From: Promethearchaeia archaeon | GTDB taxonomy: Archaea > Asgardarchaeota > Lokiarchaeia > Sigyniarchaeales > SOKP01 | Direction: 5' to 3' | DNA length: 64,000 nt | Assembly: GCA_029856045.1 (NCBI GenBank) | Contig: JAHQWG010000012.1 | Coordinates: 124,001-188,000 of the forward strand | Translations under genes and position numbers: made by a program | Part shown: piece after piece, positions 1-51,884 of the stretch | Position numbering within the stretch: position 1 is the stretch's first letter | How the letters are laid out: the number at the start of each line of letters is the position of its first letter | The notes under the pieces: generated by a model | Told to the model about the DNA's origin: nothing | The model's database searches: none | The model's input: only the letters and a program-made list of their open reading frames with translations

Positions 1-481
1 CTCCTTTCAAAATACAATTAATCTCTCTCCCTTCACTATCTATTCCTATCTCTTCAATAAGACCTGTGAAAATTCCATTGTAAATTATACAAATATTTTT
101 TGCCATAATATTATCAATATAATCTTTTGAAAGAGGATTTCCCACATCGATAGTAATATTTCCCTTTCCATAATTTAAAACAAGAATTCCATATCCTAAA
201 CTCTGTAATATTTCAAGTATAGAATTAATTATTTTCATTTTCTCTCGAAATTTTAATGATGCTACATCGCTAGTTTTAATAAAATCTTTAGCTATGGATT
301 TTCCAATAGATTTTCCAACCCAGATTAGGATATCCTTAGATTCTGAGCCAGCTAATTCTCCGAACTCAATTAGTTCTTCTGGTCTAATCATTAAAAGAGG
401 TAAATTTGAATCTTTTAAATAAATATGGGATTTTTCTTCATCTAAGAAAACATTTTCGACTTTTTTTACCCGTTTAAACAA
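1..481 (-). CDS. V4R-domain protein, partial (3' end beyond window)
   Basis: The minus-strand reading frame is open from 481 to the window edge (160 codons). The start is TTG at 481-479, chosen because GAGGTG lies 7 nt before it. The visible protein has a charged N-terminus, then a stretch around residues 27-60 (MIRPEELIEF, SKDILIWVGKSIGKSIA) like the first helices of the V4R (4-vinyl reductase) domain. V4R shares the fold of TRAPP Bet3 subunits and often serves as a small-ligand or sensor domain in archaea. The C-terminus, where V4R proteins carry conserved Cys/Gly residues, is missing. The longin-Arf GTPase gene lies upstream on the same strand. The V4R call rests on motif resemblance only; the reading frame itself is secure. 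Confidence 0.6.
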   Translation of the reverse strand, partial: MFKRVKKVENVFLDEEKSHIYLKDSNLPLLMIRPEELIEFGELAGSESKDILIWVGKSIGKSIAKDFIKTSDVASLKFREKMKIINSILEILQSLGYGILVLNYGKGNITIDVGNPLSKDYIDNIMAKNICIIYNGIFTGLIEEIGIDSEGREINCILKG

Positions 482-3931: not shown

Positions 3932-4012
3932 ATGAAAATTGTTACAGTAAATATACCAGAACCATATATAAACGCCATTGATAAATTAACAGGACATGAG
4001 GGTGGTGATTAG
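3932..4012 (+). CDS. Short ORF: truncated upstream copy of the RHH gene start
   Basis: ATG at 3932 opens a 26-codon frame ending with TAG at 4010-4012. Its first 24 codons match the start of the following RHH gene (4015-4086). The five codon differences after codon 1 are all silent third-position changes. It would encode only the beta-strand and first helix of an RHH fold, so it cannot be a complete DNA-binding protein. It may be a translated leader that couples translation into the downstream gene, because the ribosome binding site of that gene lies inside its last codons. It could equally be the relic of a tandem duplication. Confidence 0.4.
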   Translation: MKIVTVNIPEPYINAIDKLTGHEGGD

Positions 4013-4086
4013 AAATTAAAATAGTCACAGTAAATATACCAGAACCGTATATAAACGCCATTGATAAATTAACAGGGCATGAAGGT
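3932..4086 (+). repeat. Partial tandem duplication of RHH N-terminal codons
   Basis: Two 72-nt copies, 3932-4003 and 4015-4086, lie 11 nt apart. They differ at six positions: codon 1 (ATG versus ATT) and silent third-base changes in codons 3, 4, 11, 21 and 23. After codon 24 the copies diverge completely. The first runs into a stop, the second continues as a full RHH gene. Confidence 0.9.
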
Positions 4087-4293
4087 TTATATCCATCAAG
4101 GTCCGAACTTATCCGGGTCGCTGTACGGGATTTTTTGCTTAAGGAACTCAGAATGGCAAGCAATCTTTCTCTTTATCAAAAAAGAACGCCTGAAGAAAAA
4201 TTTGATCATGAAAATTTTGTTAGAGTTCCAGCTACCGATGTTGACTATGGGGGAGATAGAAATTTTAAAACCTTTAGGATTGTGAGAAAATAA
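4015..4293 (+). CDS. Ribbon-helix-helix (CopG/NikR-type) DNA-binding protein, apparent AUU start
   Basis: 92 codons plus TAA. The N-terminus (KIVTVNIPEPYINAIDKL) is the RHH beta-strand and helix 1; SRSELIRVAVRDFL is the classic second helix after the turn. A 45-residue tail follows (NLSLYQKRTPEEKF and onward). RHH proteins act as dimeric repressors, often autoregulatory. The frame has a TGA at 4006-4008 and no ATG, GTG or TTG before the domain is lost. Codon 1, aligned with the ATG of the upstream copy, is ATT at 4015, and GGTG at 4004-4007 sits 7 nt before it. I therefore place initiation at AUU. If near-cognate initiation does not occur here, this would be a start-less pseudogene. Confidence 0.7.
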   Translation: MKIVTVNIPEPYINAIDKLTGHEGLYPSRSELIRVAVRDFLLKELRMASNLSLYQKRTPEEKFDHENFVRVPATDVDYGGDRNFKTFRIVRK

Positions 4294-41371: not shown

Positions 41372-42847
41372 TTGACAACCATTAAAGAAAGAAATATTTT
41401 TGAAAGGATAGAGAAAGAAAAAATATTAAATGGATTAATAAGGATATTTGGAAAATCTAATGTTTCTGATAGGCAACATGATTTATATCCCTACTCCTAT
41501 GATATGACTGAAGCAACACCACATATGCCGGATTTTGTTGTAATTCCTGAAACTGTAAACCAAATTATTTCTTTAGTAAATTTTTGTAATGAGTATTCAA
41601 TCCCAATTGTTCCCTATATTAGCGGAAATAACGTAGGAGGTCTCACAATTCCAAATGAAGGTGGAATTATTTTAGATATGGGTAAAAAAATGAATAAAAT
41701 TATCAAAATTCATGAATCGATGATGTACGCCATATTAGAACCTGGTGTGACATTCGGACAATTAAAAAAAAATTTAGATGAGAACCATCCTAACCTGAAA
41801 TACGGCTATACAATGGCCCCACCATATGCTAGCGTTGTTGGAAACGCTCTCTTATCCGGATTATCAAATTTAAGTGGTTCCTATGGAAGTATGGCAGATT
41901 GGGTAAATGGGTTGGAAATTATTCTAAATAATGGGGATTTAGTTAGAACAGGCTCATGTTTTATCTCTAAGGAATTTAAACCCAATAATTGGTTTGCGCG
42001 ATATCCAATTCCCGACTTAACCGGTTTATTTATTTGTTGGCAAGGAATGACCGGAATTGTAACTAAATGTGCTATCCAATTATGGCCTAAAAAGGAATAT
42101 AATAAGGTATTATTAGGAATTGTTTATGGACATGAGGAATGTGCTGAAATTATTAGAGAATTGGGTAGAATTGAAGTTTGTGAGGATATTTCTGCAATTA
42201 ATTCAGAAATAGCAAAAATGACGTATGGCTTGATTAAACCTAAAAAGTTTGAAAAAGAACCAGATTATGTAGTTTTAATATCCATTTCAGGTCATACGAA
42301 AGAATTACTAAATGCTAAAATAAATTACGTGAGAAAGGTTTTTAAGAAAATAAAGGAAAGAGTTAAAAATAAAATATTCCTTACAAATTTCTTCACCTTC
42401 GCTAATATTTTAGGACCTGAATTTAGAATGTTCTACGATATTCCCAGCGTAATAACTCCTCTTTATGAATGGGATGGATTAACTTGGATCGGGAGTTATG
42501 CAAACCCAGATCATCTTGGACCCCTTATGGAGAAATGTTATAACTTATTTAACCAATATGGAATTGGTCCAATAATTTATATGAAAAGCATGAAATCAGC
42601 CCATTATTGTGTTTTCAGACCAATTATTCGATATAATAAGAAAAAAGAGCAAGCAATAGTAGAAAAACTACAAAAAGAATTTTTAAAAGTTATGCTTGAA
42701 TACGATTGTGTGCCCTATAAAACACCAGTGTGGATGACAGAAAAAATAAGAGAAAGGTGTGACCCAAATTGGATTAAATTATTAGAACGAATTAAAAATG
42801 CAATGGATCCCAATAATATCTTTAATCCGGGAAAATGGGGATTATGA
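41372..42847 (+). CDS. FAD-linked oxidase (GlcD/VAO family)
   Basis: 491 residues from TTG 41372, with GGAGG 7 nt before. The FAD_binding_4 (PCMH) domain starts PDFVVIPETVNQIISLVNF and contains IPIVPYISGNNVGGLTIPNEGG. The following VLEPGVTFGQLKKNL piece, the YASVVGNALLSGLSNLSGSYG loop and GMTGIVTKCAIQLWPK are family hallmarks. The C-terminal cap ends MDPNNIFNPGKWGL, typical of GlcD. It oxidises a hydroxy-acid or alcohol with FAD. Coupled with the SCP2-like gene, lipid-derived substrates are possible. Confidence 0.92.
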   Translation: MTTIKERNIFERIEKEKILNGLIRIFGKSNVSDRQHDLYPYSYDMTEATPHMPDFVVIPETVNQIISLVNFCNEYSIPIVPYISGNNVGGLTIPNEGGIILDMGKKMNKIIKIHESMMYAILEPGVTFGQLKKNLDENHPNLKYGYTMAPPYASVVGNALLSGLSNLSGSYGSMADWVNGLEIILNNGDLVRTGSCFISKEFKPNNWFARYPIPDLTGLFICWQGMTGIVTKCAIQLWPKKEYNKVLLGIVYGHEECAEIIRELGRIEVCEDISAINSEIAKMTYGLIKPKKFEKEPDYVVLISISGHTKELLNAKINYVRKVFKKIKERVKNKIFLTNFFTFANILGPEFRMFYDIPSVITPLYEWDGLTWIGSYANPDHLGPLMEKCYNLFNQYGIGPIIYMKSMKSAHYCVFRPIIRYNKKKEQAIVEKLQKEFLKVMLEYDCVPYKTPVWMTEKIRERCDPNWIKLLERIKNAMDPNNIFNPGKWGL

Positions 42848-47243: not shown

Positions 47244-47383
47244 TTAATTAAATAGATAATTTTGAATTATTTTAATTTTTCTTTATAAGTTTTATTTTTA
47301 TTATAATTTACTAATCTCTTATTCATTAAATTTAATTAAAATATTTATTAAATAGTATTTAGAAACTTATATGGTGTAAATTT

Positions 47384-49357
47384 ATCGTATTTAAATATGC
47401 AACCTTTTTCCCTTATGAAGCCTTTAGACAAGGACAAGAGGAAAATACAAAAAAAATTAGTGATTGCGTCAAAGAAAGAAAGAACATTATTTTAGTCGCT
47501 CCCAATGGTACTGGAAAAACAATAATTGCTCTTAGTAGCATTTTACCCTTGGCTCTTGAAAATGGCTTAAAAATTGTATATCTTTGCAGAACTCACACAC
47601 AAAATTTCAGAGCGCTTAGAGAATTAAAAAAAATTACACAATTTTTATCAAAAAATAAATTTGATAAACAAGTCAATGGAATTAGCATTAAAGGGCGGCA
47701 TGAAATGTGTCTTAACAAAATATTGCTTCAACTCAAATTATCGCCTCGTGACAGTATTTCTGTTTGCAGAGATTTAAGAAAAAATAAAAATTGCAAATAT
47801 TTTTCAAAACTAATGAAAGATCTGGGAAAAACCGAAGATGTTTCGATAATTGCAAAAAAGCTTCTAATACAACCATGTGATGCTGATGAAATCATTAGTT
47901 TTGCAGAAGAAGCAGGGTACTGTCCTTATTTTTTAAGCAAATATTTATTAGAAAAAGTGGGAATTGTAATTTGTTCATACCATTGGCTTTTTAATCCTGA
48001 TATAAAGGACGTTTTCTTAAAATTTTTAGATACCGATCTATTTAACTGTATTTTAATAAATGATGAATGTCATAATCTCTTAAGTATGGCTACAGAAGTG
48101 AATTCTGAGCGTATAACCCCATTTATTCTTAAATTAGCTCTAAAAGATTTAGAACTATATAACTCTGATCGGAATATGATAAATTTAATAAGAATTTTAA
48201 TTGCTCATCTGGAAAATAAACAAACAAATCTTAACGTAGAGGAGCGTGAATTAAATCCAGAGATTTTGATAAAAAATCTTTATGAAAAGATAGGATTAAA
48301 GGATTTAAACAGCTTTAAAATTTTAATAAAAGATTTGAAAGAATTTAGTTCTTATGTAGCCGAAATTAAATCAAGTCAGGGATTAGCTCAACGCGATTAT
48401 ATCGGATCAATCGCAAAATATTGGTTAAAATGGTTAGAAGTCTTAGATAGTGAACGATATTTCTTTTGTTACAATATTAAGACAACACGAGAAGGTAAAA
48501 AAAACATTTCTATGGATATTGTGGCTTTAGATCCTCGGGAAATAACTGTTCCTGTTTTTAAGAATGCATTTTCTACATTGAGTCTCTCTGGTACAGTAAA
48601 CTCATACGTTTATTCCAATTTAATGGGGTTAAATGAAACCGGGAAAACAAGTAAAGTTATTGTGTCACCATCCCCCTTCCCAAAAAATAATATTAAAGCT
48701 TTGATCATTGAGAACGTAAATACCAAAAGAGGAAACAGAAACGCTCAAACATATAAAAAAATGGTTAATAAAATTGAAGAAGTTATTTATTCCACTCCGG
48801 GAAATGTCGGGATTTTCTGTGCATCTTATAATGTACTTAAAGGCCTTTTAGAACAAGATATTGAGCAAAAAGTGCAAAAATACAAGAAAAAATTGTATAT
48901 TGAAGATTCAAAAATTTCTGCGGCAGAAAATGCAAAAATGATTGAAGATTTTAAAGGTGAAGGAAAAAATAATGGAGGAATACTTTTAGGAGTAGCAGGT
49001 GGGCGTAATTCTGAGGGCGAAGATTATCCTGCTGAATATATGAATTCAGTTGTGGTAGCAGGTTTCCCTTATCATGTCCCTACTCCACGAGTTAATGCCA
49101 AAATTAAATATTATGATAAGGTTTTTCATAATCGAGGTTGGGAGTTTGCCTATCTTTATCCGGCGATTGAAAGAGCGAATCAAGCAGCTGGACGACCAAT
49201 TAGAAGACTCGATGATAAGGGAGCAATTATATTTCTAGACAATAGATTTAAAGATAAAATGAAATGGATATCATCTTGGCTTAGAGATGAGATTGAAATT
49301 GTTCCAGATAAAAAAGGGGCAATTGTTCAGCAATTATATCCCTTTTGGAATGAATAA
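47384..49357 (+). CDS. XPD/Rad3-type iron-sulfur DNA helicase, apparent AUC start
   Basis: 657 residues if begun at ATC 47384. FFPYEAFRQGQEE is the Q-motif-like start, Walker A APNGTGKT at 39-46, motif II NDECHNL. Four cysteines between these motifs (VCRDLRK, NCKYF, QPCDAD, GYCPYF) are the XPD 4Fe-4S site. SLSGTVNS, GGRNSEGEDYP and QAAGRPIRR are motifs III-VI. The stop TAG at 47360-47362 and absence of ATG, GTG or TTG before Walker A rule out a canonical start that keeps the P-loop; the first TTG is 47549. GGTG at 47373-47376 lies 7 nt before ATC. It unwinds DNA in repair or transcription-linked processes. Confidence 0.9.
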   Translation: MVFKYATFFPYEAFRQGQEENTKKISDCVKERKNIILVAPNGTGKTIIALSSILPLALENGLKIVYLCRTHTQNFRALRELKKITQFLSKNKFDKQVNGISIKGRHEMCLNKILLQLKLSPRDSISVCRDLRKNKNCKYFSKLMKDLGKTEDVSIIAKKLLIQPCDADEIISFAEEAGYCPYFLSKYLLEKVGIVICSYHWLFNPDIKDVFLKFLDTDLFNCILINDECHNLLSMATEVNSERITPFILKLALKDLELYNSDRNMINLIRILIAHLENKQTNLNVEERELNPEILIKNLYEKIGLKDLNSFKILIKDLKEFSSYVAEIKSSQGLAQRDYIGSIAKYWLKWLEVLDSERYFFCYNIKTTREGKKNISMDIVALDPREITVPVFKNAFSTLSLSGTVNSYVYSNLMGLNETGKTSKVIVSPSPFPKNNIKALIIENVNTKRGNRNAQTYKKMVNKIEEVIYSTPGNVGIFCASYNVLKGLLEQDIEQKVQKYKKKLYIEDSKISAAENAKMIEDFKGEGKNNGGILLGVAGGRNSEGEDYPAEYMNSVVVAGFPYHVPTPRVNAKIKYYDKVFHNRGWEFAYLYPAIERANQAAGRPIRRLDDKGAIIFLDNRFKDKMKWISSWLRDEIEIVPDKKGAIVQQLYPFWNE

Positions 49358-51455: not shown

Positions 51456-51869
51456 TTATTTTTTCTCCTTTTTTTTATACAAACTCACATCTTTTTTTTC
51501 AAGGGAAAGTGGATCGCCACCGAAACGGATTTTTTTTCCTTTATAATAATAAATAGTTCTATCTTCGCAAATCTTTGACCATTCTTTTAGACCCAATTTC
51601 CTTATCATAACTGAGTTATAAACTTTCGAATTATGTGGTAAAAAGATTTCAAAATTGACGATAGGCATAAGCATTTCGCAAGGGAATTCTTCACATTCAT
51701 AACAAAAATCACATCCCTTATTGATAACACATTCATAAGTTTTACATGTAGGAAATTTAGATATTTTACCTTTTTCTTCTCGACATCCCTTGCAGTTATA
51801 AAATTTTATTCCAGGACAAGCTTTACAATAAATTCCGCAGGGAGCATGCCATTTTAACGATTCTTCCAG
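51456..51869 (-). CDS. DUF3795 cysteine-rich protein, apparent CUG start
   Basis: 137 residues from CTG 51869. The N-terminal half is the DUF3795 cysteine pattern: APCGIYCKACPG (C11, C15, C18), NCKGC (C26, C29), C42, C47, C53, C56, C59 and CEEFPCE (C64). DUF3795 proteins begin with APCGLDCxxCP, so the conserved region starts at codon 9 of this frame. The frame is closed upstream by TAG and has no ATG, GTG or TTG before the ATG at 51674, which would discard all cysteines. GGAG in GAGGAG (51882-51877) lies 7 nt before CTG. The gene follows glgA at 15 nt. DUF3795 probably binds metal; function is unknown. Confidence 0.85.
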   Translation of the reverse strand: MEESLKWHAPCGIYCKACPGIKFYNCKGCREEKGKISKFPTCKTYECVINKGCDFCYECEEFPCEMLMPIVNFEIFLPHNSKVYNSVMIRKLGLKEWSKICEDRTIYYYKGKKIRFGGDPLSLEKKDVSLYKKKEKK

Positions 51870-51884
51870 AAAATATCTCCTCTA

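Follow-up and report, generated by a model that had tools for sequence, protein, structure and literature searches.

The stretch of DNA analysed here (the window, 64,000 nt from a Promethearchaeia archaeon) carries on its forward strand a helicase gene whose open frame, 47363-49357, contains no ATG, GTG or TTG upstream of a TTG at 47549 when scanned from its first position. Initiation at this TTG would yield a 602-aa protein devoid of motif I. From which codon, then, is the protein translated, and by what means? The first-pass annotation had proposed an ATC located exactly 7 nt after a GGTG, with a closing TAG upstream and the first canonical codon lying past the Walker A loop; re-reading of the sequence confirmed all these coordinates (Table 1). 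The comparative evidence presented below suggests, with a probability of roughly 0.8, that the helicase is translated from this AUC by GGUG-led initiation and that the weak codon acts as a brake on its expression.

Table 1. Features of the helicase locus and of two further window genes with a near-cognate codon in the start column.
Feature	Position in the window	Strand	Remarks
In-frame TAG closing the helicase frame upstream	47360..47362	+	ORF reading
ATG-GTG-TAA, two-codon mini-ORF in another frame, overlapping GGTG	47371..47379	+	
GGTG, complementary to CACC of the 16S 3' end GGATCACCTCCT	47373..47376	+	
7-nt spacer between GGTG and ATC	47377..47383	+	Same length in all 23 near-cognate-start species
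ATC, putative helicase start codon	47384..47386	+	Column ATC/ATA in 23 species, ATG in others
XPD/Rad3-type helicase, 657 aa from ATC	47384..49357	+	Pfam and XPD structure matches
TTG, first canonical in-frame start codon (codon +55 from ATC 47384)	47549..47551	+	Beyond Walker A
GGTG-N7-ATT, putative start of ribbon-helix-helix (CopG-type) gene	4004..4017	+	ATG in column in three congeners
RHH_1 protein, 92 aa from ATT	4015..4293	+	First canonical codon 40 codons downstream
GGAG-N7-CTG, putative start of DUF3795 gene	51867..51880	-	ATG in column in congener G004
DUF3795 protein, 137 aa from CTG	51456..51869	-	First canonical codon 65 codons downstream

The helicase and the selection acting on it

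When read from ATC, the gene encodes a complete XPD-type protein, in agreement with the earlier claim that it is otherwise intact. It carries the Pfam domains DEAD_2, HBB and Helicase_C_2 (matches of 2e-27, 2.1e-13 and 6e-35) and matches XPD structures at 7e-42. A Walker A motif, GTGKT, is found at residue 42 (nt 47507) and DECH at residue 227; Walker A, a DEAH-type motif II and the three domains together place the protein among the XPD/Rad3 helicases of superfamily 2. Cysteines 109, 128, 137 and 165 fall by position in the interval between motifs I and II, which we take to be the region of the XPD FeS domain. The full architecture is shared with known members of this group, such as Thermoplasma Ta0057 and the XPD of TFIIH, and only the start codon differs.

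Protein identity to three congeners (G001, G002 and G004) is 89-91%, whereas identity at four-fold sites is 68-74%, which indicates purifying selection on the helicase. In the same kind of comparison, the 19 codons upstream of ATC show no synonymous and 7-8 amino-acid-changing codon differences, while the 54 codons downstream of it show 2-4 synonymous and 2-3 amino-acid-changing ones. Since the upstream differences all change the amino acid and the downstream mixture is coding-like, coding constraint appears to begin at about the ATC. The same first 54 codons (47387-47548) contain few synonymous changes among congeners, 2-4 as against 22-24 in the next 145 codons, and it is possible that another nucleotide-level signal lies after the AUC.

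The start column in related genomes

The three congeners mentioned above have the same TAG and the same GGTG-N7-ATC, and no canonical start is closer. A more distant congener (G003), only about 65% identical in protein and 42% at four-fold sites, shows CGGTG-N7-ATC, and GGTG-N7-ATC is found altogether in five species of the genus g1, four of them besides the source genome. In the same column of the alignment, eighteen further species or loci from four other genera carry GGTG-N7-ATA or GGTG-N7-ATC, the first canonical codon being at least 24 codons downstream in these 18 loci; the column is offset by two codons owing to a two-codon length difference before FFPY. For instance, it holds ATA in G007, G010, G011, G017, G018 and G023 and in many other species of genus g8, and ATC in G015. 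A total of 23 species thus have ATC or ATA in the helicase start column, which makes a sequencing error at the ATC unlikely.

When 65 genomes of the family were searched for GGTG-N7-ATH with the conserved RAY-TAY..TTY-TTY behind it, 21 genomes matched, as compared with a single match for the reversed control pattern. Twenty loci were extracted and 18 of them encode the helicase, including one (L263) in which GAGKT replaces GTGKT and the rest of the sequence is that of the same helicase. Seven orthologues have ATG in the start column, and all of them lack the GGTG (L010/L290, L016, L040, L041, L283, L284 and L287). GGTG followed by ATG at a spacing of 4 to 10 nt was found at the helicase start in none of the 65 genomes. 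In three genomes (G005, G019 and G024) GGTG lies 6 nt before ATA, so that its GTG is in frame and the choice of start is ambiguous, and six sequences (G008, G016, G021, L036, L038 and L039) have an N-terminal extension with a canonical start upstream.

On a tree of 34 sequences the states of the start column need three changes, against a mean of 7.3 when shuffled, and the tree is most simply read as a single old gain of the near-cognate start in family f1 with losses afterwards. The alignment of orthologues suggested by the first-pass annotation therefore supports its proposal: no canonical start fits the conserved N-terminus, the near-cognate column is conserved, and the Shine-Dalgarno (SD) spacing is fixed and its motif matches the 16S rRNA.

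Putative near-cognate start codons and GGTG in the genome

The helicase is one of several genes of this kind. Two other window genes have putative near-cognate starts, and both their ATT (4015) and their CTG (51869, minus strand) correspond to ATG in the same column in congeners; in the first, the ATT stands behind GGTGGTGATTAGAA and the three congeners with ATG share 95-96% protein identity. At C15:107710, ATA is preceded by GGTG at 7 nt in four congeners and the column reads ATG-GAA-CC in G006 and G010. At C27:310294, four congeners have ATT with the same leader, and most other genera have ATG or TTG. At these four genes, then, near-cognate codons occupy the very column in which relatives have ATG or TTG, and so take the place of canonical starts. 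They can also replace each other, as in one SDR gene that has ATT in G000 and ATA in G004.

The association with GGTG was studied in a census of 1.17 Mb (859 coding ORFs, about one third of the genome), which took all codons lying after the closing stop and ahead of the first canonical start and tested them against every preceding 4-mer at spacings of 3 to 14 nt. Of the 877 combinations, GGTG at 7 nt was the one most strongly associated with AUA, AUU and AUC (AUH; p=5.3e-6, about 0.005 when corrected). GGTG at 9 nt ranked next. Spacings 6 and 9 are partly masked by the in-frame GTG of GGTG, so that the raw table overstates how sharply 7 nt is preferred. At 7 nt after GGTG there were 11 AUH, 6 other non-canonical and 10 canonical (ATG, GTG or TTG) starts, as compared with one AUH in 131 occurrences of the same arrangement inside genes. 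Extrapolation by length would give about 30 such genes in the genome. The AUH set comprises a zinc-ribbon protein (ATA-TNFCPYCG), an SDR protein (ATT-FDKFLEGKGAVITGAASG), an ABC ATPase (ATT-TESYAIRTQNLTKNFG), an AMP-ligase-like protein and others, products being assigned by inspection, and their N-termini are those expected of these products.

In 400 kb of a control family (f2, G030) GGTG at 7 nt precedes seven canonical and no AUH starts (Fisher p=0.02); the two AUH and four canonical starts counted in three other genera of the helicase's own family (400 kb) are too few sites for a comparison. A general SD effect was considered and rejected: GGAG or GAGG at 9-13 nt precedes 52 canonical and 7 AUH starts without AUH excess (773-kb sample, in which the counts overlap at GGAGG), so the near-cognate link is with GGUG. 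The comparative columns support the first-pass annotation in its proposal that initiation at AUU, AUC and CUG recurs in this lineage, but the pattern is tied to GGUG and not to SD motifs generally. Its parallel with the spacing of UUG genes holds for the one at 479-481 (minus strand), which reads GGTG, 7 nt and TTG; those at 41372 and 19717 have the same spacing but begin with GGAGG and AGGA, which are other anti-SD registers. Mean folding energies at +4 to +64, -7.5 for the 11 AUH genes, -5.9 for 24 canonical genes with GGTG and -5.5 for 139 others, come from too few genes to claim a downstream hairpin. Most window genes lack a recognisable SD motif, which fits leaderless or short-leader transcripts.

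Some genes fall outside this pattern. Two conserved-looking ones, a topoisomerase VI B-like gene and an Obg-like GTPase gene beginning inside the G1 loop (by inspection; C27:72949-75997 and C27:178683-179877, minus strand), lack both a canonical start and GGUG; split genes, frameshifts or other starts are possible. The frame of a Roadblock/LC7-like gene (by inspection; C27:116359-116764, plus strand) opens with ACG, which follows the GTG of GGACGTG at 7 nt and may be the start codon.

The initiation machinery looks ordinary. The 16S 3' end, GGATCACCTCCT, is intact and carries CACC, so that GGUG can pair with it. A single initiator tRNA gene was found (C27:220560-220656, minus strand, L081), with a CAU anticodon, A1-U72, a GGG stem and a short anticodon-loop intron, and no second initiator-like tRNA appeared among the tRNA matches examined in a partial survey. 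The translation factor aIF1 is present in all good genomes and shows, by inspection, the zinc-finger, basic-loop and GGTVK..IELQGDH motifs usual in other archaea. An altered initiation machinery was rejected on these three grounds. Introns that escape ARAGORN are present in many tRNA genes of this genome; for 9 of the 25 tRNA loci it gave no call. A tRNA-SeC gene is predicted in the source genome (L087, C1:2268-2355), which may use selenocysteine.

Proposed mode of initiation, alternatives and known systems

These observations suggest a simple mechanism. By pairing with CACC at the 3' end of the 16S rRNA, the GGUG of the helicase mRNA would hold the 30S subunit in such a way that the P site receives the AUC located 7 nt farther on. 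The ordinary CAU initiator tRNA would read this codon with a third-position mismatch, so that the protein probably begins with methionine. The other genes with AUA, AUU or AUC starts would use the same GGUG-led mode. In the helicase, the near-cognate codon would be a fixed brake that keeps expression low, and presumably selection maintains it: the weak codon is kept across the family and AUG is found only in relatives without GGUG, which makes a brake on expression most likely.

The principal alternative to a selected brake is neutral drift, in which GGUG lets the ribosome tolerate any AUN and AUG decays to AUH in an AT-rich genome at no cost or benefit. The interchange of AUH codons, seen in the SDR gene and in the ATC and ATA of the helicase, and the recent change from ATG in two window genes speak for it. 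However, the helicase shows GGUG with AUG in none of the 65 genomes, even though a single mutation would create it, a fact in favour of selection for low expression, and ATC is retained in five g1 species while identity at four-fold sites drops to 42%. We regard drift as a rather unlikely account of the near-cognate starts. The reasons for the persistence of the weak codon are nevertheless less certain than the mode of initiation; the association of GGUG with near-cognate codons may be a matter of tolerance and not of selection for weak expression, and the recent changes in other genes may be drift.

Other readings dispute the initiation event itself. Initiation by another tRNA, such as tRNA-Ile, with a residue other than methionine is suggested by the predominance of AUA, AUU and AUC, all isoleucine codons, but it is very improbable given that CTG and probably ACG starts occur too, that relatives have ATG or TTG in the same columns, and that the only initiator tRNA among the matches of the partial survey is an ordinary CAU one. 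Ribosomes could also start out of frame, at ATG 47371 or GTG 47374, and enter the helicase frame by frameshifting or by termination and reinitiation, as the mini-ORF overlapping GGTG in four species of the genus would allow. This mini-ORF is absent from other genera, where TTGGTG, CGGTG or AGGTG is found, and the GTG frame of other near-cognate genes ends after one or two codons, for instance in GGTGAATTAAAATA; this route is very unlikely. Decay or mis-assembly of the gene copy might be supposed from the lack of a canonical start for 55 codons in a multi-contig draft assembly. Yet the arrangement is common to independent assemblies of many species and the intact protein is better conserved than its four-fold sites, so that this explanation has a negligible probability.

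The proposed initiation at AUC led by GGUG has its closest counterparts in bacteria. The infC gene of E. coli starts at AUU. In Staphylococcus aureus, the closest case demonstrated by experiment, infC starts at AUA, a conserved weak start, and AUA or AUU starts with an extended SD give about 10% of the expression of an AUG reporter (PMC13009471). Like the helicase, bacterial infC combines an SD sequence with a conserved near-cognate AUH codon; however, its product is IF3 and its start serves autoregulation, whereas the helicase has no known link to start-codon selection and belongs to an archaeon, in which starts are selected by aIF1, aIF1A and aIF2. The ccpN (AUA) and cvfC1 (AUU) genes of Staphylococcus likewise have conserved, SD-aided AUH starts in genes unrelated to translation, where AUH lowers expression to about 10% of that with AUG (PMC13009471); the archaeal starts are predicted from sequence. 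The staphylococcal cases involve an extended SD and a handful of genes, in contrast to the 4-nt GGUG at 7 nt and the 11 AUH against 10 canonical starts of our sample.

With SD-led and leaderless initiation in archaea the present system shares the predicted pairing of GGUG with the anti-SD CACC and ordinary-looking aIF1 and initiator tRNA. A review of archaeal initiation names only AUG, GUG and UUG as starts and describes SD sequences as not prevalent in the single Lokiarchaeote that was examined (PMC7531240), and according to one report the aIF1 of Sulfolobus solfataricus favours discrimination against starts that are non-canonical (PMC6237735). Conserved AUH starts thus have precedent in bacteria; no archaeal report was found in the open-access literature, although one may exist unseen.

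It is possible, but we propose it tentatively, that this lineage possesses a distinct GGUG-led mode in which AUA, AUU and AUC are regular starts, making up about half of the genes with GGUG at 7 nt, while genes without GGUG need AUG, GUG or UUG. If so, start-codon stringency would be set for each mRNA by its leader and not by initiation factors alone. Should AUA, AUU and AUC prove to be regular, conserved starts in Lokiarchaea, gene callers would truncate or lose genes, as with the helicase, which loses its Walker A, and named genes together with a testable rule, GGUG plus 7 nt, would open start-codon stringency among the archaeal relatives of eukaryotes to experiment.
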